DNA of 37,722 bases from the NCBI GenBank assembly GCA_002843005.1, contig PHEX01000006.1, forward strand, positions 1-37,722, given 5' to 3'. The stretch's first letter is position 1; the number at the start of each line of letters is the position of its first letter. Shown one piece after another: positions 8,827 through 17,960 of the stretch. This DNA is from Candidatus Anoxymicrobium japonicum. GTDB lineage: Bacteria > Actinomycetota > Geothermincolia > Fen-727 > Anoxymicrobiaceae. Made by a program: the position numbers and the translations under genes. The notes under the pieces were generated by a model, which had not been told where the DNA came from, did not search any database, and saw only the letters and a list, made by a program, of their open reading frames with translations.

Positions 8827-8871
8827 AACGCCTCAATTCTCTAAACGTTGACTGGCACTAACCGCGCGTGG

Positions 8872-9534
8872 ATGTATCCAAAAGTCGAAGGTAAAAGTAT
8901 AGTATATCCCACACACAACCGTGGAGGTGGATTTGTCCTGACGGATAGCGCGGTTCTCAAAACTGTTTCAATAAGCTCATCGTCCAAGAACTCGGGCAAG
9001 AGCACGGTTGCGTCTTTTCTCGTTGGTGAACTCGGCGCCGACTACGGCCTGAAAGTCAGCCACGGCAACCACGCACCAGCCCCTATCGTCACCGAACCCG
9101 AGATCATCTCTCGGCCCGGCACTGACACCGCCGCGCTCGTTCGAGCCGGCGCGAAGAAAGTAGTCTGGGTGAACGCCGACGCCGGGACGCTCGAGAACGC
9201 GCTCGAGCAAGCGCTCGCGCTGTTCTCTGAAGGCGGAGTCCTGGTGGCGGAAGGAAACAGCGCGCTGGAACGCCTCTCGCCCGACTTCGCGGTATTTCTC
9301 ATGACGGCGCCGTTTGAGGAGTTCAAGCCCTCCGCCTCCCCCGCGCTCGAGAAGGCGAACCTCGTCCTTGTCGACTTGCGATGGGCACTCGCAGACACCT
9401 CGAAAAAGGTTATCAGTGCCGGTCTCCACGCGCGAGCCCCGAACGCCCGTACAATCTTCTACTCAGACAAACAGGGGTTCACCGAAGCGCTCGAGGAAAC
9501 CGCGCGCCTCGCCAGAAAAAAAGTAGCATTATAG
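8872..9534 (+). CDS. MobB-like P-loop protein (molybdopterin guanine dinucleotide synthesis)
   Basis: A P-loop SSSKNSGKST close to the N-terminus is followed by YGLKVSHGNH, which resembles the GxKKSGKT and KHxxH features of MobB, the GTP-binding partner of MobA. Its place, converging on a molybdopterin formate dehydrogenase operon, supports a cofactor role, but it is divergent enough that another nucleotide-binding function is possible. The start is uncertain. ATG 8872 has no SD. The best SD in the region (GGAGGTGG at 8923-8930) lies seven bases before an in-frame CTG at 8938, which would give a 198-residue protein beginning just before the P-loop. TTG 8848 coincides with a TTGACT that may be a -35 box. 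Confidence 0.6.
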   Translation: MYPKVEGKSIVYPTHNRGGGFVLTDSAVLKTVSISSSSKNSGKSTVASFLVGELGADYGLKVSHGNHAPAPIVTEPEIISRPGTDTAALVRAGAKKVVWVNADAGTLENALEQALALFSEGGVLVAEGNSALERLSPDFAVFLMTAPFEEFKPSASPALEKANLVLVDLRWALADTSKKVISAGLHARAPNARTIFYSDKQGFTEALEETARLARKKVAL

Positions 9535-9536
9535 CA

Positions 9537-9577
9537 AAAACGCAACACATGGGGTCAAGCCCCACGTGTTGCGTTTT
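9537..9577. terminator. Bidirectional hairpin terminator of the GGGGTC repeat family
   Basis: AAAACGCAACACATGGGG (9537-9554) pairs with CCCCACGTGTTGCGTTTT (9560-9577) around a five-base loop with one mismatch. The A/T runs at both ends suit termination in both directions, between the converging MobB-like and rnfD genes. Confidence 0.75.
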
Positions 9578-9599: not shown

Positions 9600-10565
9600 T
9601 TACCTGGCAACCTCAGCCACAGGCGTCGCTTTCACCTTGCCGAACGTCTTGCGAACCACAAATCGGTTGAAGAGCGGTGTGCATGCGTTGCCGATAAGTA
9701 TCGAGTACGCCACCGCCCCTGTGGGCGCCGCGTATAACCTTATCACCACTATCAGCACGCCGATCAGCACGCCGTACAGTACCTGCGCAACCCTGCAGTC
9801 AGGGCTCGTCACCCAATCGGTGGCCATGAAGAATGACCCGAGCATGACACCCCCGGCGAGGATCATGTAAAGCGGGTTCTGCCCCAGTATCGCCGAGAGG
9901 ATAAACACTGTTCCAATGATCGAGGCCGGTATATGCCAGGTTATATGACCCTTGTACATGAGGTAAGCCGCGCCCACCAGTACGGCAAGCACCGACACTT
10001 CGGCCACCGCGCCACCCGCGTGGCCGAGGAATAGCTCCAGATACCCCGGTCGAACGCCGGCGAGCGAGCCACCTTTGATAAATGTGAGAGGCGTTGCCGT
10101 AGTCACGCCATCCAGACTCCCAAGAGAGTAGGACGCGTTTGCCATTGCCCAGAACCTCGATATCACAAGCATCGATACGAAGCCGAACAGCGCCGGGTTG
10201 AACATGTTGCGGCCCAACCCGCCCATGAGCTCTTTTACTATTGCCACCGCTATGACCGTACCAATCATCGCATACCAGAACGGCACCGCCGGCGGGAGAA
10301 GAAGACCCACAAACAGGCCCGTCACTATCGCGCTGAAATCGTCGATAGTCACACTGCGCTTCATCAGCTTGCGCATGACCCACTCCGAACAGATAGCCGC
10401 CACGACACAAGCCGCCAGGTTCACTATCGCGTAGAGCCTGAAGAACCCGATAGCAACAACAATCACGGGCATGAGGGCGATAGCAACGTCCCTCATAGCC
10501 GAACCAACCTCATCCTTGCTCACTATGTGCGGCGGCACCGACATAATAAATTCACGGTCTGCCAT
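9600..10565 (-). CDS. rnfD: RnfD, membrane flavoprotein subunit
   Basis: About 321 residues of the NqrB/RnfD family with ten or so membrane helices. The DGVTTATPL segment carries the threonine that covalently binds FMN on the outer face in this family (S/TxAT motif). KELMGGLGRNMFNPA, the conserved segment before it, and the late ATDWVTSP segment are also typical. In Rnf, RnfD passes electrons between the outer-face flavins and RnfC. The ATG at 10565 gives the usual N-terminus (MADREFIMSVPPHI); an ATG at 10586 is possible. It directly follows rnfC. No rnfG, rnfE, rnfA or rnfB follows: the operon ends at the hairpin 9537-9577. Confidence 0.93.
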   Translation of the reverse strand: MADREFIMSVPPHIVSKDEVGSAMRDVAIALMPVIVVAIGFFRLYAIVNLAACVVAAICSEWVMRKLMKRSVTIDDFSAIVTGLFVGLLLPPAVPFWYAMIGTVIAVAIVKELMGGLGRNMFNPALFGFVSMLVISRFWAMANASYSLGSLDGVTTATPLTFIKGGSLAGVRPGYLELFLGHAGGAVAEVSVLAVLVGAAYLMYKGHITWHIPASIIGTVFILSAILGQNPLYMILAGGVMLGSFFMATDWVTSPDCRVAQVLYGVLIGVLIVVIRLYAAPTGAVAYSILIGNACTPLFNRFVVRKTFGKVKATPVAEVAR

Positions 10566-10582
10566 GCAAATCTCGCCCCCTT

Positions 10583-11896
10583 TCATTTCTTAGCCGCAGC
10601 GGCAAGTTCCGCCTTGGCTTTGCGCACGTAAGCAATGTGCCGTATTCGAGCCGGGCACACGTAAGAGCAACAGCCACACTCAAAACAGTCATTCGCCCCG
10701 TACTTCTCAGTAAGGTTCCACCGCCCGCGCTTTGCCTGCTTCACTATGAAGTTCGGCATCAGGAACATCGGGCAAACATCTCCGCACTTGTTACACCCAA
10801 CGCACTGCTGTTCCGCACTCTCTTCCACGGCCTCCGCAGGTAAAACCACGATGCCGCTTGTCCCCTTAACGACCGATGCCGACAGATCTTTCTGCGCGAA
10901 GCCTGTCATCGGACCACCCATTATCACCTTGCCAGGATTGCCAATGATGCCCCCGCACTGCTCGATCACATGCGCTATTGGAGTCCCTACCTTGACATTG
11001 ATGTTCCTGGGATTCTTGATGCCCGGGCCAGTAACTGTGATGACGCGTTCTATAACCGGCTTTCCCGTGGCCGCCGCGTCGTAGAGAGCTACCGCTGTCT
11101 GCGCGTTCTGCACCAGCACACCGACCTCGCTCGGCAACTTGCCGGGCGGAACCCTGCGTCCGGTGATCGCGTCGATGAGCATTTTCTCGGCACCCTCGGG
11201 GTATTTGACCTCGAGCACCGATACCTCGAGTCCCGGCTCTCCCGAGAGCTTCGCCGAGAGCAAATCGGCCGCGTCCATCTTATTGGCCTCGATCCCAATG
11301 ATGCCGCGCTCCGCGCCAACAGCTTTCATCATGAGCTTGAGACCTTTGATGAGATCGTCAGGCCTCTCGAGCATCAGCCGGTGGTCGCAGGTCAGAAACG
11401 CCTCACATTCGCAACCGTTAATTATGACAGTATCAATGGATTTGCCCTTTGGCGGCGCGAGCTTTACATAACTCGGGAACGCCGCGCCTCCCAGGCCGAC
11501 CAATCCGGCCTCCTTGGCGATCTCCCTGATCTGCTCGGGCGTCAGATTGCTTACGTCACGCGTGTCGGTAAACTTGCCAGGCTGACCTGGATCCACCGAG
11601 ATAACAACACATGCAACAGAAGCGCCTGTAAAGTTTTTTCGCTCTTCAACAGCCTTCACCGTTCCTGATACGCTGGCGTGCGCTGGCGCCGAGATGAAGG
11701 CCTCACTAGACCCTATTTTCTGGCCAACCTCCACTCTGTCACCGACTTTCACAGTCGCCTGGTTTGGCGCGCCGACGTGCTGCTGCATCGAGATCACCAC
11801 TTCAGTAGGGAGAGAGATGTCTTCTGTCGCCTTGCCGGCGGTGGCCTCCTTCTGATATGGGGGATGTATCCCGCCACGGAATGTCTTAAGTTCCAC
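10583..11896 (-). CDS. rnfC: RnfC, NAD(H)-linked FMN and iron-sulfur subunit
   Basis: A 437-residue protein of normal RnfC length. It starts with FRGGIHPPYQKE, typical of the family, then the biotinyl-like region, the GLVGLGGAAFPSYVKL loop shared with NuoF for FMN/NADH binding, and a SLBB-like part. Two ferredoxin motifs follow near the C-terminus (CVGCNKCGDVCP and CFECGCCSYVCP). It should sit on the cytosolic face and exchange electrons with NAD(H). The GTG start has GGAGG eight bases ahead. It is 15 bases downstream of fdhB and upstream of rnfD. Both clusters and the flavin loop are intact, so it looks functional. Confidence 0.94.
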   Translation of the reverse strand: MELKTFRGGIHPPYQKEATAGKATEDISLPTEVVISMQQHVGAPNQATVKVGDRVEVGQKIGSSEAFISAPAHASVSGTVKAVEERKNFTGASVACVVISVDPGQPGKFTDTRDVSNLTPEQIREIAKEAGLVGLGGAAFPSYVKLAPPKGKSIDTVIINGCECEAFLTCDHRLMLERPDDLIKGLKLMMKAVGAERGIIGIEANKMDAADLLSAKLSGEPGLEVSVLEVKYPEGAEKMLIDAITGRRVPPGKLPSEVGVLVQNAQTAVALYDAAATGKPVIERVITVTGPGIKNPRNINVKVGTPIAHVIEQCGGIIGNPGKVIMGGPMTGFAQKDLSASVVKGTSGIVVLPAEAVEESAEQQCVGCNKCGDVCPMFLMPNFIVKQAKRGRWNLTEKYGANDCFECGCCSYVCPARIRHIAYVRKAKAELAAAAKK

Positions 11897-11913
11897 CAGT
11901 TTTCCCTCCTCTC

Positions 11914-12753
11914 CTATTTATCCAACTTGTTTTTTTCTTCGAGGCCGCGGTTTCGGGCGTTGATAACGCCGTTTACAACCATAGCCGCAACGAGCCCGAC
12001 AGCGGCAAGCCCGCCGTACGGCCTAGCCATGGACTTCCACAACTTGACCGAAGCAGGCACGGACGGATTCACCGGAAGAGCGTACTTCTCCGGAGAAGCC
12101 GACAGCACGTACAGATAACGCAAGCCTCCGAGCTGATCCTTGCCATAAACCTGTGCCTCCGCGACGCCAGCCTTCTTCAACTGTTCCACCTTGAGCTCCG
12201 CCCTGTAAAGAAGCTCTTGCCTGCCGCCAAACAACAGCGCTCCCGGAGCGCACGCCTTGACGCACGCCGGCGTGTCGTAACCGTCCATGGCATTTGAAAC
12301 CCTGTCCAGGCACAACGTGCAACGGTAGACGCCCTTCTTCTTCTGGTTATAACCTGGAACGTCAAATGGACATACCGCTCTGCAATAGTTGCATCCGATG
12401 CACTTTTTTGGGTCGGTCGCTACCCTCTTGATTATCGAACCATCCGCCAGATTGAACTTCTCATGCTTCGTCGCCCCTGACGGGCAAACCTCAACGCACG
12501 CCGCGTCGGTGCAATGCATGCACTGGTGCTTGGTGAACAACCAGCTCATCTGCCCATTGAAGTGCTCATTAAACAGGATGCGCATCCAGGTGTTCGAACC
12601 AAGAGACGGCGGGTTCTCGTAAGAACCAAGATTGGTCGTCCTCTCGGCCGGGTTCTGATTCCACTGCTTGCAGGCAATCTGACATGCGCGGCAAGCTGTA
12701 CATCTTGTCGAATCAACCAGAATTGCCTTTTCGGTTCCATGTCCATCTATCAT
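11914..12753 (-). CDS. fdhB: Formate dehydrogenase iron-sulfur subunit with C-terminal membrane anchor (FdnH-like)
   Basis: A 279-residue protein with four [4Fe-4S] ferredoxin-type cysteine sets (CTACRACQIAC, CMHCTDAACVEVCP, CIGCNYCRAVCP and CTLCLDRV with a later CVKAC). This is the pattern of FdnH/HybA electron-transfer subunits. A single hydrophobic helix near residues 243-260 (GGLAAVGLVAAMVVNGV) follows, as in FdnH, where it anchors the subunit in the membrane with the clusters outside. There is no own signal, so it is expected to be exported together with FdhA through Tat. A strong AGGAGG lies ahead of the ATG. It starts 14 bases after the fdhA stop and precedes rnfC. Confidence 0.92.
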   Translation of the reverse strand: MIDGHGTEKAILVDSTRCTACRACQIACKQWNQNPAERTTNLGSYENPPSLGSNTWMRILFNEHFNGQMSWLFTKHQCMHCTDAACVEVCPSGATKHEKFNLADGSIIKRVATDPKKCIGCNYCRAVCPFDVPGYNQKKKGVYRCTLCLDRVSNAMDGYDTPACVKACAPGALLFGGRQELLYRAELKVEQLKKAGVAEAQVYGKDQLGGLRYLYVLSASPEKYALPVNPSVPASVKLWKSMARPYGGLAAVGLVAAMVVNGVINARNRGLEEKNKLDK

Positions 12754-12766
12754 GCCACGTCACCTC

Positions 12767-15700
12767 CTATGCTTTTTCGATGTTGACCAGGAACGCTTTG
12801 TACTCCGGGATCATGGTGTTGGCGTCACCAACGTGCGGGGTCAACTGGTTTGCCGCGTAGTTATTGCCGTTGGGCCCCCCGGTTGAGTAACCTGTGTAGC
12901 CAAAGTGCCACGGGATGCCAACCACATCAGTTTTCACTCCGTTTATGGTCATTGGCTGCACCCTGTCTGTGACAAGCGCAACCGCGCCCACTTCGCCCCT
13001 GACGGACTTGACCTTCACGCGGGTGCCATTGCTGATACCTTTACGTTTGGCGAGATCCTTGGACATTTCCACCAACATCTCCGGTTGTAGTTCTGCAAGC
13101 CAGGGCAAGTTGCGGGTCATCTGTCCCGCCTGCCAGTGCTCGGTTAGCCTGAATGTCATACAGACTATTGGATAGTTTTTGTCGCCTACCTCCGCCAGCT
13201 TATCCATATCTGAATCCCAGATCTTTATGACCGGGTTATTCTGGCTCTTGCTCATGCTGTTCTCGCACGGCGCCTCCACCGGCTCGTAGTGTTCGGGAAA
13301 AGGCCCGTCCGTAAACGCGCTGCCGGGAGCGAAGAGATGGCCCATGCCAAAGTTGAGCATTATATACGGATTAGCCGCGGATACGGCGGGTGGCACAGGC
13401 GGCTTGTCCGGCTTGGTTGCATCGACAAACGCGAAGTCTGCGACATCGTTGTTGACCCATTTCGCCCCGTCCCACTGAACCAGGTTCTTGTCCTTGTTCC
13501 ACGGCTGGCCCGCAGGATCCGCCGAACAGCGGTTGTACAATATCCGTCGGTTGACCGGCCACGCGAACGTCCACTTCGGGAAAAGACCCAGCCCGCTGGG
13601 ATCCACGTTCTCTGCGCGCTTGGAGAGATTACCTCCTGTCAACGGATAGACATCCTCAGTCGGATAAACGCCCGAGTACACCCAGCAGCCACAGGCAGTG
13701 GATCCGTCATCCTTCAGCGCTGTGAAGTTCAAGACCTGCTTCTTGTCAGCCCACGTAAACCCGTTTATCTCTTTTAATACCACATTTGGGTCGGGCTCTT
13801 CCCCGTACGGCCAGTACAGGTTGACGATAGCCTCGCGATTCGGCGCCTTCTTGTCAGCGACATAGAGTTCGCGAAGCTTCAGCATTACCTGGCTTATTAT
13901 CGCGGCATCCGGCCGCGCCAGGCCTGGAGGGTCAACCGCTTTGTAACGCCACTGCATCCAGCGGCCGCTGTTGGAAATTGTGCCCTCCTTTTCGACGGAG
14001 GAAGCCGCGGGGAGAAAGAACACCTCTGTATCTATCTTGCCGGCATCAGCGTCCGGCCTCTTCCAGAAAGCCGACGTCTCGGTCTCCCACAGGTCAACCG
14101 CGACAAGCCAATCCAGATTCTCTAGGGCTTTGCCTTCCATGTTTGAGTTCGGCCCGCCCACGCATGGATTTTGTCCCCAGCAAAACATTCCCTTGACCTC
14201 TTTTTTGTAAAGAGCCTCAAAAATGGCGATATGACTGTAGTTCTTGCCATCTTTGACCTTGGGGAGCCACTGATAACCAAACTCGTTTTCGGGTTTGGCG
14301 TTGTCCCCCCAGAACGCTTTCAACAGGCTCACTGTAAACTTTGGCCCGTTTTTCCAGAAAGCCGTTCCAGCGCTCTTAACTCTCGTCTCGTTGTGTGTCT
14401 TGAGATCCGGAAGTGTCGTGCTGTTCGGCACCGCCAAGTACCCTGGCAGGATGTGCCAGAGAAGCGCGTGATCCGTTGAGCCCTGAACGTTGGATTCGCC
14501 CCTGAGAGCCGCGATCCCACCGCCGGGAACCCCGATGTTCCCAAGCAATAGCTGCAGAATGGCAAATGAACGGATGTTCTGTGTGCCACAAGTGTGGTGG
14601 GTGAGGCCCATCGCGTAGAGATGCACTCCGCTCTTCCCGCGCTCATGCGTGGCGCAGTAGGTTTTAGATATCTCATCGAACTTCGCTTTTGAGATACCGC
14701 ATATCTTCTCGACCATCTCGGGCGTGTACCTGGAATAATGTTTCTTCAAAAGCTGAAACACGCACTGCGGGTTCTGGAAAGTCGGATCCTTCAGGGGCAC
14801 CGCATCCGGCAGCGGCTTGCCGTCGGGACCAATCTTGTCCATCTGGTAACTCCAGGTGACCGGGTCGTACTTCCGCTTCTCCTCGTTGTAGCCGGAGAAA
14901 AGGCCCGTCTCCTCATTGAACTTGTATCCAGGATTGACCAGGAACGAGAAGTTGGTGTACACCTTTACGTAATCCCAGTCAATGGTGTTGTTTTCGATAG
15001 CATAGTTGATGATCCCGCCACAGAACGCGATGTCAGTCCCCGGGCGAATTGCTGAATAGATATCCGCCTTGGATGCCGTGCGCGTGAACCGCGGATCTAC
15101 CACTATCAGCTTTGCCGGATCCTTTTCGCGATGCATGGCCTCATTCATCCATTTGAACGCGAGTGGATGCGTCTCAGAAGTATTGGAGCCACATGCCAAA
15201 AAGCAGTCTGAGTTCTTGAGGTCGATGAAGTGGTTGGTCATAGCGCCCCTGCCGAAAGAACCGGCCAGGCCGGGAACCGAGGGTGAGTGACAGATGCGAG
15301 CCTGGTGCTCCAGATAAGCAATGCCAAGGCTTCTCGCGAACTTGGTAAGCAGGTAGCACTCTTCGTTATCCAGCGAAGCTCCACCGAAGTTGGCGATGGC
15401 TTCTGTGCGGTTGCACTTTACCTTCTTCCCTGTCGGCTTTCCCTCCTTGTCAAGTATTTCATCCTCGAGAATCCAGTTGTTGTCCCTTGTTTCTTTTACC
15501 TTCCTGGCAATACGCGTGATTGCGTCTTCCCAGGAAATCTCTTTCCAGGACGATGAGCCAGGCGCTCTGTATAGTGGTTTGGTAAGACGCTTCTTGTTCG
15601 GCTTGCCATCTACAAACCCTACCTGAATGAGCGACGTGCCCTTGCTGCAAAGCGTGCCCGTATTAATAGGGTGATCCGGATTGCCTTCCGTATTGATGAT

Positions 15701-15898
15701 TTTTCCTTTTTCACTTCTAACCAAAATACCGCAACCCGTCCCGCAGTAAGGGCAGATAGTCGTCGATTCTTTTCCCGTGGAGATGCGTAGCGGTTCGGTC
15801 GCTGCCAGTGCGGGAACGCTGAAGCCCAGGTTTGCCAGTGCCGCAGTGCCGATACCCGCACCTGACAGCTTCAGGAAATCCCTACGTGTTAGTTCCAT
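12767..15898 (-). CDS. fdhA: Tat-exported formate dehydrogenase catalytic subunit, cysteine type
   Basis: A 1043-residue molybdopterin oxidoreductase closely patterned on FdnG (formate dehydrogenase-N alpha). The N-terminus has a twin-arginine signal (TRRDFLKLSG, arginines 5 and 6) with a likely cut after about residue 33. The [4Fe-4S] cysteines are C49, C52, C56 and C84. The active site reads ARICHSPSV: Cys203 replaces the selenocysteine of FdnG, followed by the conserved His204, and the FGRGAMTNH segment matches FdnG. It oxidises formate to CO2 (or works in reverse) on the outer face, using a Mo- or W-bis-MGD cofactor. The start is an ATG with GAGGGG ahead, and a promoter may lie at 15941-15970. 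Confidence 0.95.
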   Translation of the reverse strand: MELTRRDFLKLSGAGIGTAALANLGFSVPALAATEPLRISTGKESTTICPYCGTGCGILVRSEKGKIINTEGNPDHPINTGTLCSKGTSLIQVGFVDGKPNKKRLTKPLYRAPGSSSWKEISWEDAITRIARKVKETRDNNWILEDEILDKEGKPTGKKVKCNRTEAIANFGGASLDNEECYLLTKFARSLGIAYLEHQARICHSPSVPGLAGSFGRGAMTNHFIDLKNSDCFLACGSNTSETHPLAFKWMNEAMHREKDPAKLIVVDPRFTRTASKADIYSAIRPGTDIAFCGGIINYAIENNTIDWDYVKVYTNFSFLVNPGYKFNEETGLFSGYNEEKRKYDPVTWSYQMDKIGPDGKPLPDAVPLKDPTFQNPQCVFQLLKKHYSRYTPEMVEKICGISKAKFDEISKTYCATHERGKSGVHLYAMGLTHHTCGTQNIRSFAILQLLLGNIGVPGGGIAALRGESNVQGSTDHALLWHILPGYLAVPNSTTLPDLKTHNETRVKSAGTAFWKNGPKFTVSLLKAFWGDNAKPENEFGYQWLPKVKDGKNYSHIAIFEALYKKEVKGMFCWGQNPCVGGPNSNMEGKALENLDWLVAVDLWETETSAFWKRPDADAGKIDTEVFFLPAASSVEKEGTISNSGRWMQWRYKAVDPPGLARPDAAIISQVMLKLRELYVADKKAPNREAIVNLYWPYGEEPDPNVVLKEINGFTWADKKQVLNFTALKDDGSTACGCWVYSGVYPTEDVYPLTGGNLSKRAENVDPSGLGLFPKWTFAWPVNRRILYNRCSADPAGQPWNKDKNLVQWDGAKWVNNDVADFAFVDATKPDKPPVPPAVSAANPYIMLNFGMGHLFAPGSAFTDGPFPEHYEPVEAPCENSMSKSQNNPVIKIWDSDMDKLAEVGDKNYPIVCMTFRLTEHWQAGQMTRNLPWLAELQPEMLVEMSKDLAKRKGISNGTRVKVKSVRGEVGAVALVTDRVQPMTINGVKTDVVGIPWHFGYTGYSTGGPNGNNYAANQLTPHVGDANTMIPEYKAFLVNIEKA

Positions 15899-16038: not shown

Positions 16039-16902
16039 TTAGTATCCGCCTGAAGCGCGATTCAAACCTTTCTTCTTCGCCGCAAGGTCAAGTTTGACCG
16101 TCACAATATCTTCCAGCGGTAATAAGACGTCCACGCCGCCGTCCCGCAGGTCAACGACCTTCACATAACGCTTGCAAGCCTTACAGTAGCTGGCCCTTTT
16201 GCTCTCATCATTATCGAGATACAGGAACTCGAGCGAGCCGTGCGAATCATCACAAAACGGGCACTGCGCCCGCTGGACGTTCCACAGGGTATGACATAGC
16301 GAACACTCAACAAGCCAGAGGCCATCTTCTTTGCGAAACTTACCCATCAGGGGAACGCATCCGCAAACGGGGCATTTGCCCCGCCGCCATAACGACTGCT
16401 CCATTTCAACCGGTTGAATACTAGCGCTTTTCCTGTAAAACGGCACAAGCGCCTCCCACAAAATACTCCCGGCAAACGCCAAATTCCGCTCCGCGGACTC
16501 GCCAGTGGGCACAAAATCAAGTTTCTCGCCCGAGAGCACTTTATTTCGTGTGTCTGAGAAGCGCTCATCGGAAAGCCCTTCCCAGGATAGTAGTTCCTCG
16601 CGGTATGAGAAACCACCGACCTTCAGTTTGTCGATTGCCAGGCATATCCGATATGCCAGGACTCGAAATTCGGCCACGTCTATTTCGAAGCTGAACGGAT
16701 CCAGAAGCGGCTTGCCTGAGCGCAGGCTCGCTTCCACATCCTCGGGACTCATCGCGTCCAGCGAACAGGAGATCTCTTCAAGGGCGGCCTGCTGAACCTC
16801 CATTATGGCACCGTACATCCGAAGCGCGTCGGCGTAATCGGGATAGTGCTTCACGTAGAAGGCTACGGATTCGCGAACCGCTTCGACCCCCGGGGTAATC
16901 AC
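16039..16902 (-). CDS. fdhE: FdhE, formate dehydrogenase maturation protein
   Basis: About 288 residues with the FdhE hallmark of paired CxxC zinc/iron-binding motifs: CPVCGC, CSLCH, CPFCDD and CKACK. FdhE binds the twin-arginine precursor of respiratory formate dehydrogenases in the cytosol and helps insert or keep their cofactors before export. The frame is open to 16986, but the GTG at 16902 has AAAGGAG eight bases ahead, a much better site than the upstream TTG. It lies between tatC and fdhA, all in one direction, which fits a Tat-dependent FdhA. Confidence 0.9.
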   Translation of the reverse strand: MITPGVEAVRESVAFYVKHYPDYADALRMYGAIMEVQQAALEEISCSLDAMSPEDVEASLRSGKPLLDPFSFEIDVAEFRVLAYRICLAIDKLKVGGFSYREELLSWEGLSDERFSDTRNKVLSGEKLDFVPTGESAERNLAFAGSILWEALVPFYRKSASIQPVEMEQSLWRRGKCPVCGCVPLMGKFRKEDGLWLVECSLCHTLWNVQRAQCPFCDDSHGSLEFLYLDNDESKRASYCKACKRYVKVVDLRDGGVDVLLPLEDIVTVKLDLAAKKKGLNRASGGY

Positions 16903-16975
16903 AAGCAACTCTCCTTTCCAACGTACATTTTCTACAAAAGCGTATGAAATCTCCGTCGATCCAATCCGCGCGCGG

Positions 16976-17746
16976 TCAGCTTCCAACGTCCGCTTCCAGG
17001 GCAGCCGCGGCGGCCCTTCGTTTTCGCGTCGTAATCCATGCCAGCGCGATGCTTATTATATAGAGGATAAACATTGGAATCGCCACAAGCGTCATAGTGA
17101 CAGGACTCCAGTCGGGTGTTAGCAAAGAGGCGGCAAGCAGGATGATGATCACAGCCCAGCGCCACTGCTTCTGCAACTGCTCGGGGGTTACCACGCCCAT
17201 CGCGACAAGCATCCAGATAAACACAGGGGTCTCGAAGGAAGCGCCCAGACCCAGCATGAACCATCCGGCGAAATTAACGTACTGGTTGGCTGATATCACC
17301 GGCCTCATCTGTGTGCCGGCGACTCCGAGCAGCCACTTGATGCCCGCGGGCATAATGAACTTGTAGCCGAAGGCGACTCCCGCCACGAAGAACGCGACGA
17401 TCGTCAACATGACAAGCACCATGTACCCGCGTTCCTTGCGCTTCAGCGCGGGGGAGACAAAAGACAGTATCTCAAAAAGGATCACGGGCAAAGAGAGAAG
17501 AAGTCCGCCGAAGATCGCCAGCTTGAGCTTGACCAGAAACGGCTCCATAAGCCCCATGTAGTTCAAGTTCAAGGTGATGCCGCCGGCGGGGGCTTTCAGA
17601 ATCTCCAGAATGTCCCACGCGAAGATCCACCCGACCGCAACCGCCACCGCGAGCGCGATAAAAGTTACGATTATCCTGCGGCGAAGCTCCTCCAGGTGCT
17701 GGAAGTAAGTCATCTGACCAGGATGAAACGGGACACTGAACGCCAA
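16976..17746 (-). CDS. tatC: TatC, twin-arginine translocase receptor subunit
   Basis: A 256-residue protein with six membrane helices and the family start FQHLEELRRRIIV. Further TatC features are SFVSPALKRKER and the loop with GASFETPVF carrying the conserved glutamate of the FE(T/L)PV motif. TatC recognises twin-arginine signals. TTG 17746 is the longest start; ATG 17713 gives a more standard MTYFQHLEELR beginning. It lies 16 bases after tatA and ahead of fdhE. Confidence 0.95.
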   Translation of the reverse strand: MAFSVPFHPGQMTYFQHLEELRRRIIVTFIALAVAVAVGWIFAWDILEILKAPAGGITLNLNYMGLMEPFLVKLKLAIFGGLLLSLPVILFEILSFVSPALKRKERGYMVLVMLTIVAFFVAGVAFGYKFIMPAGIKWLLGVAGTQMRPVISANQYVNFAGWFMLGLGASFETPVFIWMLVAMGVVTPEQLQKQWRWAVIIILLAASLLTPDWSPVTMTLVAIPMFILYIISIALAWITTRKRRAAAAALEADVGS

Positions 17747-17762: not shown

Positions 17763-17960
17763 CTATGAGTTCTGCTCGGAATTGGAACCGGATCCATCGA
17801 GGCTTTTCTGTACCTCTTCTTGAACCTTGTCGGTCGAGTCGCGGAACGCGCGCAGCGCCTGACCTACAGACTGCCCAACCTTTGGGAGGCGGGACGGCCC
17901 GAAGATAACAAGCGCGATGACCATTATGATTACCAGTTCCGTCGGTCCGAGTCCAAACAT
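17763..17960 (-). CDS. tatA: TatA-type pore subunit of the twin-arginine translocase
   Basis: A 65-residue protein with an N-terminal helix (LGPTELVIIMVIALVIFGP), the FGPxxLP hinge and an amphipathic helix (GQSVGQALRAFRDS), followed by a polar tail: the TatA/B form. With tatC next to it this is a minimal TatAC system; no tatB is nearby. AAAGGAG stands seven bases ahead of the ATG, and an extended -10 (TG then TATGAT, 18002-17994) suggests a start of transcription between it and the zincin gene. Confidence 0.95.
   Translation of the reverse strand: MFGLGPTELVIIMVIALVIFGPSRLPKVGQSVGQALRAFRDSTDKVQEEVQKSLDGSGSNSEQNS

Follow-up and report, generated by a model that had tools for sequence, protein, structure and literature searches.

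Gene order and cofactor residues at the locus

The window analysed here is a stretch of 37,722 nucleotides of Candidatus Anoxymicrobium japonicum (Actinomycetota, Geothermincolia; contig PHEX01000006.1), and its subject is a minus-strand operon in which the genes for an exported formate dehydrogenase (FDH), fdhA and fdhB, are directly followed by rnfC and rnfD. The complete run reads tatA-tatC-fdhE-fdhA-fdhB-rnfC-rnfD and is ended by a strong terminator, with intergenic gaps of 13, 17 and 17 bases for fdhA/fdhB, fdhB/rnfC and rnfC/rnfD, respectively. An earlier note on this DNA had described the last four genes as a closely spaced run ending at a terminator, and this was borne out by the coordinates, the family scans and the stem-loop prediction. 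Its further claim that FdnI, rnfG, rnfE, rnfA and rnfB are all missing from the window also held, and no RnfA/E family match was obtained there. Beyond that earlier observation, fdhE and tatC, as well as a tatA recognised by inspection, belong to the unit on its upstream side. The features on which the argument rests are the following.

12767..15898, minus strand: fdhA, FDH-N-type catalytic subunit of 1043 amino acids (aa) with predicted molybdenum/tungsten-bis-PGD (pyranopterin guanine dinucleotide) and 4Fe-4S cofactors
15290..15292, minus strand: TGT codon of the catalytic Cys203 of FdhA (codon position counted by hand)
11914..12753, minus strand: fdhB, 279 aa, four Cys motifs for [4Fe-4S] clusters and a C-terminal transmembrane anchor
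10583..11896, minus strand: rnfC of the stand-alone clade, flavin mononucleotide (FMN)/NAD(H) subunit; TIGR01945 503 bits, above cut-off
10655..10804, minus strand: eight Cys of RnfC for two [4Fe-4S] clusters, Cys365 to Cys414, from alignment conservation
9600..10565, minus strand: rnfD of the stand-alone clade; TIGR01946 256 bits (above cut-off), PF03116 301 bits
10197..10199, minus strand: RnfD Asn123, predicted riboflavin site (N123 in Acetobacterium woodii), from alignment
10092..10094, minus strand: RnfD Thr158, predicted covalent FMN site (T156 in A. woodii), from alignment
9816..9818, minus strand: RnfD Asp250, predicted riboflavin site (D249 in A. woodii), from alignment
9537..9577, minus strand: intrinsic terminator, 18-pair stem-loop followed by a T run

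The family scans placed FdhA firmly among the FDH-N alpha subunits (TIGR01553, 1176 bits; cut-off 814). The protein carries the Tat motif TRRDFLK and resembles the FDH structures 9qm0, 6sdr and 1kqf. FdhB scored 219 bits with TIGR01582, below the cut-off of 334.7, as expected if it is a divergent relative, and its closest solved chain was FdnH (1kqf_B, E 6e-57). For RnfC the best solved chains were 7zc6_C (E 2e-125) and 9eri_C (E 3e-121), and for RnfD 7zc6_D (E 3e-75). RnfD comprises 321 aa and matches PF03116 only, with no fused PF00175, the NAD subunit being RnfC. An alternative, earlier ATG for rnfD at 10586 would result in a 4-base overlap with rnfC. The terminator stem-loop had a z-score of -5.1, and none of 200 shuffled sequences was equally stable. 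An in-frame TGA stands at the position of the Cys203 codon in 15 of the 18 relatives examined, which is consistent with selenocysteine and with the FdhA of the window being a Cys variant of a mostly selenocysteine-containing family.

In the Rnf complex of A. woodii, the FMN of RnfD is covalently bound at T156 and faces outward, while riboflavin is held by N123 and D249 toward RnfC, to which the electrons then pass; RnfD was reported to carry electrons rather than Na+, and pumping was ascribed to RnfA/E (PMC11889175). The equivalent residues N123, T158 and D250 were kept in every stand-alone RnfD that we aligned, comprising 21 fdh-linked, 18 hydrogenase-linked and 1 psr-linked sequences. Likewise, the eight cluster cysteines were kept in 21/21 fdh-linked and 18/18 hydrogenase-linked RnfC proteins, two RnfC rows having alignment gaps in this region. 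An AlphaFold model of the window RnfD (pLDDT 75) matched 9eri_D with a TM-score of 0.83.

Conservation of the linkage and the remainder of the genome

The linkage between fdhB and rnfC was scored in 59 genomes, including that of Ca. A. japonicum, by searching them with RnfC and with FdhB and comparing the coordinates of both searches by hand. Across the class set of 31 genomes (G000-G030), rnfC was located directly downstream of fdhB and on the same strand in 22 of 23 cases, and the remaining fdhB (G018:C192) was positioned at a contig end. Outside the class, the phylum yielded seven fdhB matches, all of them in genomes without this RnfC. Where longer stretches were available, the order tatC-fdhE-fdhA-fdhB-rnfC-rnfD was seen in several families, and apbE was found just downstream of the operon in G015. 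A wider scan of 84,980 species genomes revealed Bacillota metagenome-assembled genomes (MAGs) in which the order was either fdhA-fdhB-rnfC-rnfD or, flipped, rnfC-rnfD-fdhA-fdhB, as well as one Symbiobacterium MAG. The earlier note had proposed to trace the gene order in related genomes; the linkage of fdhAB with rnfCD proved to be conserved throughout this class and to turn up again in other phyla. When duplicates are included, the stand-alone rnfC loci beside an exported oxidoreductase amounted to 29 with fdh, 25 with hydrogenase and 3 psr-labelled ones, and neither rnfG nor rnfB was present beside stand-alone rnfCD in the window or at the loci of the relatives. All of these sources are draft assemblies, which might suggest a coincidental operon or an assembly artefact. 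However, the same fdhAB-rnfCD junction was found in more than 20 genomes, each assembled independently, that span several collections and phyla; this refutes such an explanation and leaves it a negligible chance.

To see what else the organism encodes, its own assembly (1.77 Mb, 130 contigs, 99.6% complete) was queried family by family, and all absences reported for it rest on profile searches of this one assembly. A search for rnfG, rnfE, rnfA and rnfB, as suggested in the earlier note, led to a complete rnfC-D-G-E-A-B cluster with ApbE alongside on another contig (C13), and the only two RnfA/E family matches of the genome were both in this cluster. Conceivably, the fdh-linked RnfC and RnfD could be spare subunits that join the RnfA/E/G/B proteins of the complete cluster in a hybrid Rnf, the linkage with fdhAB then reflecting co-regulation. 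The presence of a complete Rnf with an adjoining ApbE would fit this idea, as would the fact that RnfC2 and RnfD2 of the fdh operon are recognisable as Rnf subunits. The complete cluster, however, has its own rnfC and rnfD, so its presence does not refute the earlier interpretation. Moreover, G015 (99% complete), G018 (91%), G004 (85%) and G006 (77%) contain stand-alone RnfCD but no RnfA/E match, which largely refutes a hybrid Rnf. The stand-alone sequences also tended to group apart from the canonical ones in a tree built from 87 RnfC rows: a group of 44 rows that included no canonical member had moderate support (89/74), and its actinobacterial subset of 37 rows was firm (100/99). A hybrid Rnf is also difficult to reconcile with the three kinds of exported oxidoreductase linked to rnfCD and with the partner-dependent loops of RnfD, as detailed below. 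We consider it very unlikely, and we likewise rejected the view of rnfCD as part of an incomplete local Rnf, in view of the full Rnf on C13 with its own C and D and the four relatives in which RnfA/E was undetected.

Another possibility is that a quinone, or else a periplasmic cytochrome, accepts the electrons of FdhAB, RnfCD having some other role nearby. The related FDH-N enzymes do use FdnI and quinone, and FdhB retains the FdnH-type transmembrane anchor. Yet the genome of Ca. A. japonicum yielded no match to PF01292, the b561-type cytochrome b family of FdnI, and none to NrfD. The search for fdnI that the earlier note had proposed thus came out negative, and a hidden cytochrome b for FdhAB was rejected for lack of a PF01292 match. 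The UbiA family of quinone prenyltransferases also had no match in this genome, while it was found in 14/14 control genomes. Because matches to the b561-type cytochrome b, NrfD and UbiA families were all lacking, FdhAB appears to be without the usual quinone route, and a quinone partner is unlikely as judged from these profile searches. Furthermore, rnfC is the invariant downstream neighbour. Altogether, the odds of electrons leaving FdhAB by this route appear to be very low.

Based on the gene content, the linkage, the kept cofactor residues, the lack of a detectable alternative membrane partner or UbiA, and the reuse of RnfCD with other enzymes, we therefore propose, with a probability of roughly 0.8, that FdhA, FdhB, RnfC and RnfD constitute a membrane-bound formate:NAD+ oxidoreductase. 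Several points weigh against it. Every genome found to carry the operon is a MAG or a draft assembly, the stand-alone RnfC clade as a whole has moderate support (89/74), and at high membrane potential little or no net energy would be conserved in going from formate to NAD+.

The genes flanking the four core genes were annotated as follows.

17763..17960, minus strand: tatA-like gene for Tat export, 65 aa, TatA-typical sequence by inspection
16976..17746, minus strand: tatC (PF00902 197.5 bits, TIGR00945 172 bits), position kept in relatives
16039..16986, minus strand: fdhE, FDH accessory protein (PF24859/PF24860 above cut-off; TIGR01562 65.6 bits, below cut-off)
8848..9534, plus strand: mobB-like gene for the molybdenum cofactor (PF03205 and TIGR00176 both below cut-off)

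Comparison of gene neighbourhoods showed that fdhE adjoins fdhA in relatives too. The mobB-like gene is convergent to rnfD, its position is kept in genomes of the same family (L040-L043), and it probably serves the supply of molybdenum cofactor to FdhA.

Other partners of stand-alone RnfCD

Many of the same genomes hold another stand-alone rnfCD pair, which follows the genes for an exported [NiFe] hydrogenase small subunit, its large subunit and a protein that we named HyaX, and which is in turn followed by a maturation protease gene and usually also by hypF and hypD. The order hyaA-hyaB-hyaX-rnfC-rnfD-hyaD-hypF-hypC-hypD was observed in Geothermincolia-type Actinomycetota (L058:3742-14000, L047, L053-L057, L066, L068, L076 and others). 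Ca. A. japonicum itself had no match for an [FeFe] hydrogenase and a weak one for a [NiFe] large subunit. A second, hydrogenase-type rnfCD without adjoining hydrogenase genes was found in G002 (L041:4989-7522), possibly as a remnant after the hydrogenase had been lost or relocated.

HyaX is a protein of 154-166 residues with four transmembrane segments and without a match in Pfam or NCBIfam. The best fold match of its model (pLDDT 80) was the cytochrome b of Escherichia coli hydrogenase-1 (6g94; TM-score 0.65, probability 1.00, with a modest E of 0.024), while a HyaX profile gave only chance-level matches against the sequences of solved structures. In an alignment of 17 HyaX sequences, one His column was widely conserved and no conserved His pair was found. 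The assignment of HyaX as a cytochrome b was dropped, since there was no family match and the similar fold came with a single conserved His column. As the alignment lacks two haem ligands, a bis-His haem in HyaX is unlikely. A reasonable guess from the model is that HyaX descends from a haem subunit and now acts as a scaffold, RnfD having taken over the electron transfer.

Further arrangements were encountered outside these two main types. In Ca. Geohydrothermomicrobium daggyaiense (L059:367-5891, the same as L086), genes for an FdhB-like protein, rnfC and rnfD stand together with that for a Tat-exported PhsA-like molybdoenzyme. A MAG labelled Desulfovibrio carries rnfC-rnfD followed by genes for a HybA-like subunit and the small and large subunits of a [NiFe] hydrogenase (L094:9001-15672); its RnfC nests in a Bacillota clade, so that transfer or mis-binning is possible. 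In an unclassified bacterium, a PF01292 cytochrome b gene directly precedes rnfC-rnfD at a contig edge (L129:79-3232), and the respective RnfC forms the deepest branch of the stand-alone group.

Fdh-linked and hydrogenase-linked RnfC sequences were intermixed in the tree, which implies, as far as this phylogeny can be read, that RnfCD has exchanged partners. The spacing of landmarks in RnfD changed with the partner as well. From Asn123 to the FMN-binding Thr, fdh-linked RnfD proteins have 33-40 residues and actinobacterial hydrogenase-linked ones 62-68, and from this Thr to the next landmark the respective distances are 28-33 and 48-49 residues. The hydrogenase-linked RnfD of the Desulfovibrio-labelled MAG, which is accompanied by an FdhB/HybA-like subunit, displayed the fdh-like spacings of 40 and 30. 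Docking of the exported partner at the outer FMN would be expected to bring about such partner-dependent spacing around the FMN Thr. The formate complex of the earlier note finds support, but its formate-specific view was too narrow, as the arrangement also occurs with hydrogenases and PhsA-like enzymes. It seems fairly probable to us that RnfC-RnfD is a general, exchangeable transmembrane adaptor, or 'half Rnf', that would connect exported FDHs, [NiFe] hydrogenases and PhsA-like enzymes to NAD(H) without quinone or ferredoxin, in a reversible and electrogenic manner, with partner-specific RnfD loops and, in the hydrogenase version, with a cytochrome b-like subunit devoid of haem ligands. Such an adaptor would amount to a class of coupling site not yet described for anaerobes.

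Proposed electron path, its direction and its meaning

According to the proposed mechanism, FdhA and FdhB would be exported by Tat and formate would be oxidised at the outer face of the membrane. The Fe-S chain of FdhB, held in place by the C-terminal helix, would then directly reduce the covalently bound FMN of RnfD, which would lie close to the outer face, FdhB standing in for RnfG as electron donor. The riboflavin of RnfD would be next, and after crossing the membrane the electrons would reach the [4Fe-4S] cluster pair of RnfC, its FMN and finally NAD+ inside. The genomic checks, none of which was refuting, support the route from FdhAB through RnfD to NAD+ that the earlier note had put forward; the physical complex, the direct transfer from FdhB to RnfD and the direction of flow are what we infer from the sequences. 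Compared with Rnf (RnfCDGEAB), the unit has all FMN, riboflavin and [4Fe-4S] ligands of RnfC and RnfD and the same predicted path from RnfD via RnfC to NAD+. It would, however, represent only the second, or 'return', arm of the U-shaped path of Rnf, without the RnfB ferredoxin input, RnfG, and the ion-pumping RnfA/E pair with its intramembrane [2Fe-2S] cluster, and we propose that electrons enter RnfD from an exported FDH or hydrogenase instead. With E. coli FDH-N (FdnGHI) it shares the Tat-exported alpha subunit (TIGR01553) and the four-cluster beta subunit with a C-terminal transmembrane anchor, whereas RnfD and RnfC would replace the FdnI cytochrome b and quinone, NAD+ being the proposed acceptor.

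For each formate oxidised, one proton would appear outside and another would be consumed inside. Since two electrons also move inward in every turnover, the reaction would be electrogenic. The span from formate to NAD+ is ∼110 mV under standard conditions, which is about or below the usual membrane potential, and net inward flow would be favourable only at a membrane potential below ∼110 mV. Hence, the statement in the earlier note that the complex adds to the proton gradient needs to be qualified: it may do so when electrons flow inward, but with so small a span it may run either way. Given this small driving force, the membrane potential may drive NADH-dependent formate production.

It is indeed possible, although we regard it as the less likely direction, that the same complex works in reverse, with NADH inside and the membrane potential driving the reduction of CO2 (or H+) outside, thereby providing fermentation or syntrophy with an outlet for electrons. 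By textbook potentials, the formate/CO2 and H+/H2 couples lie only ∼100 mV below NAD+/NADH, the inward transfer of two electrons opposes the membrane potential, and the occurrence of both formate and H2 versions is as expected for the disposal of excess electrons. On the other hand, the genome encodes carbon monoxide dehydrogenase/acetyl-CoA synthase, for which formate from outside could be a donor, together with further Wood-Ljungdahl genes, and the exported FDH-N and Hyd-1 of E. coli work oxidatively. Another contig of the same genome (C50; L039:1-6019) carries genes for a cytoplasmic FDH whose further subunits are NuoEF-like and MvhD-like; combined with the exported enzyme, it would permit formate to cycle across the membrane.

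The proposed oxidoreductase, and RnfCD more generally, can be set against several known systems. Two-gene NQR/RNF-like systems contain an RnfD fused to PF00175 without a flavinylated Thr, together with an RnfG-like flavoprotein and acceptors outside, and it was argued that one arm can work alone in a one-way transfer (PMC8238504; PMC11334425). They have in common with the present unit that one arm of the path is kept and that an RnfD-like transmembrane subunit is coupled to a cytoplasmic NAD domain, but here RnfC is a full, separate subunit, and RnfD retains the Thr and has a metalloenzyme as partner. In the methylene-tetrahydrofolate reductase of A. woodii, an RnfC-type protein, RnfC2, is reused outside Rnf as NADH subunit (PMC6436200). 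Unlike stand-alone RnfCD, it lacks RnfD and a transmembrane step. The hydrogenase versions resemble E. coli HyaABC and HybOABC in that an exported [NiFe] enzyme sits on a membrane electron module, in the Hyd-1 cytochrome b-like fold of HyaX and in the HybA-like subunit of L094, but RnfCD takes the place of HyaC or HybB, which provide the link to quinone. Soluble NAD-dependent or bifurcating FDHs perform the same formate:NAD+ chemistry, but they are cytoplasmic and scalar, without transmembrane electron transfer. In the open-access literature we found no description of an FDH or a hydrogenase joined to RnfCD, in agreement with the remark in the earlier note that no complex of this make-up is known to have been described; PMC10213532 and PMC10579422 turned out to be unrelated.

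If the proposed oxidoreductase exists, Rnf consists of two arms that can be taken apart, and the return arm alone would provide a quinone-free and ferredoxin-free link from formate or H2 outside to NAD inside. It would also offer a minimal system for how the flavins of RnfD move electrons across the membrane without ion pumping, which is still debated for RnfD/NqrB. Genome annotation would otherwise take these rnfCD genes for Rnf fragments. For uncultured subsurface Actinomycetota and some other anaerobes, the stand-alone RnfCD would make it possible to consume or give off formate and hydrogen, which bears on acetogenesis and syntrophy close to the energy limit.

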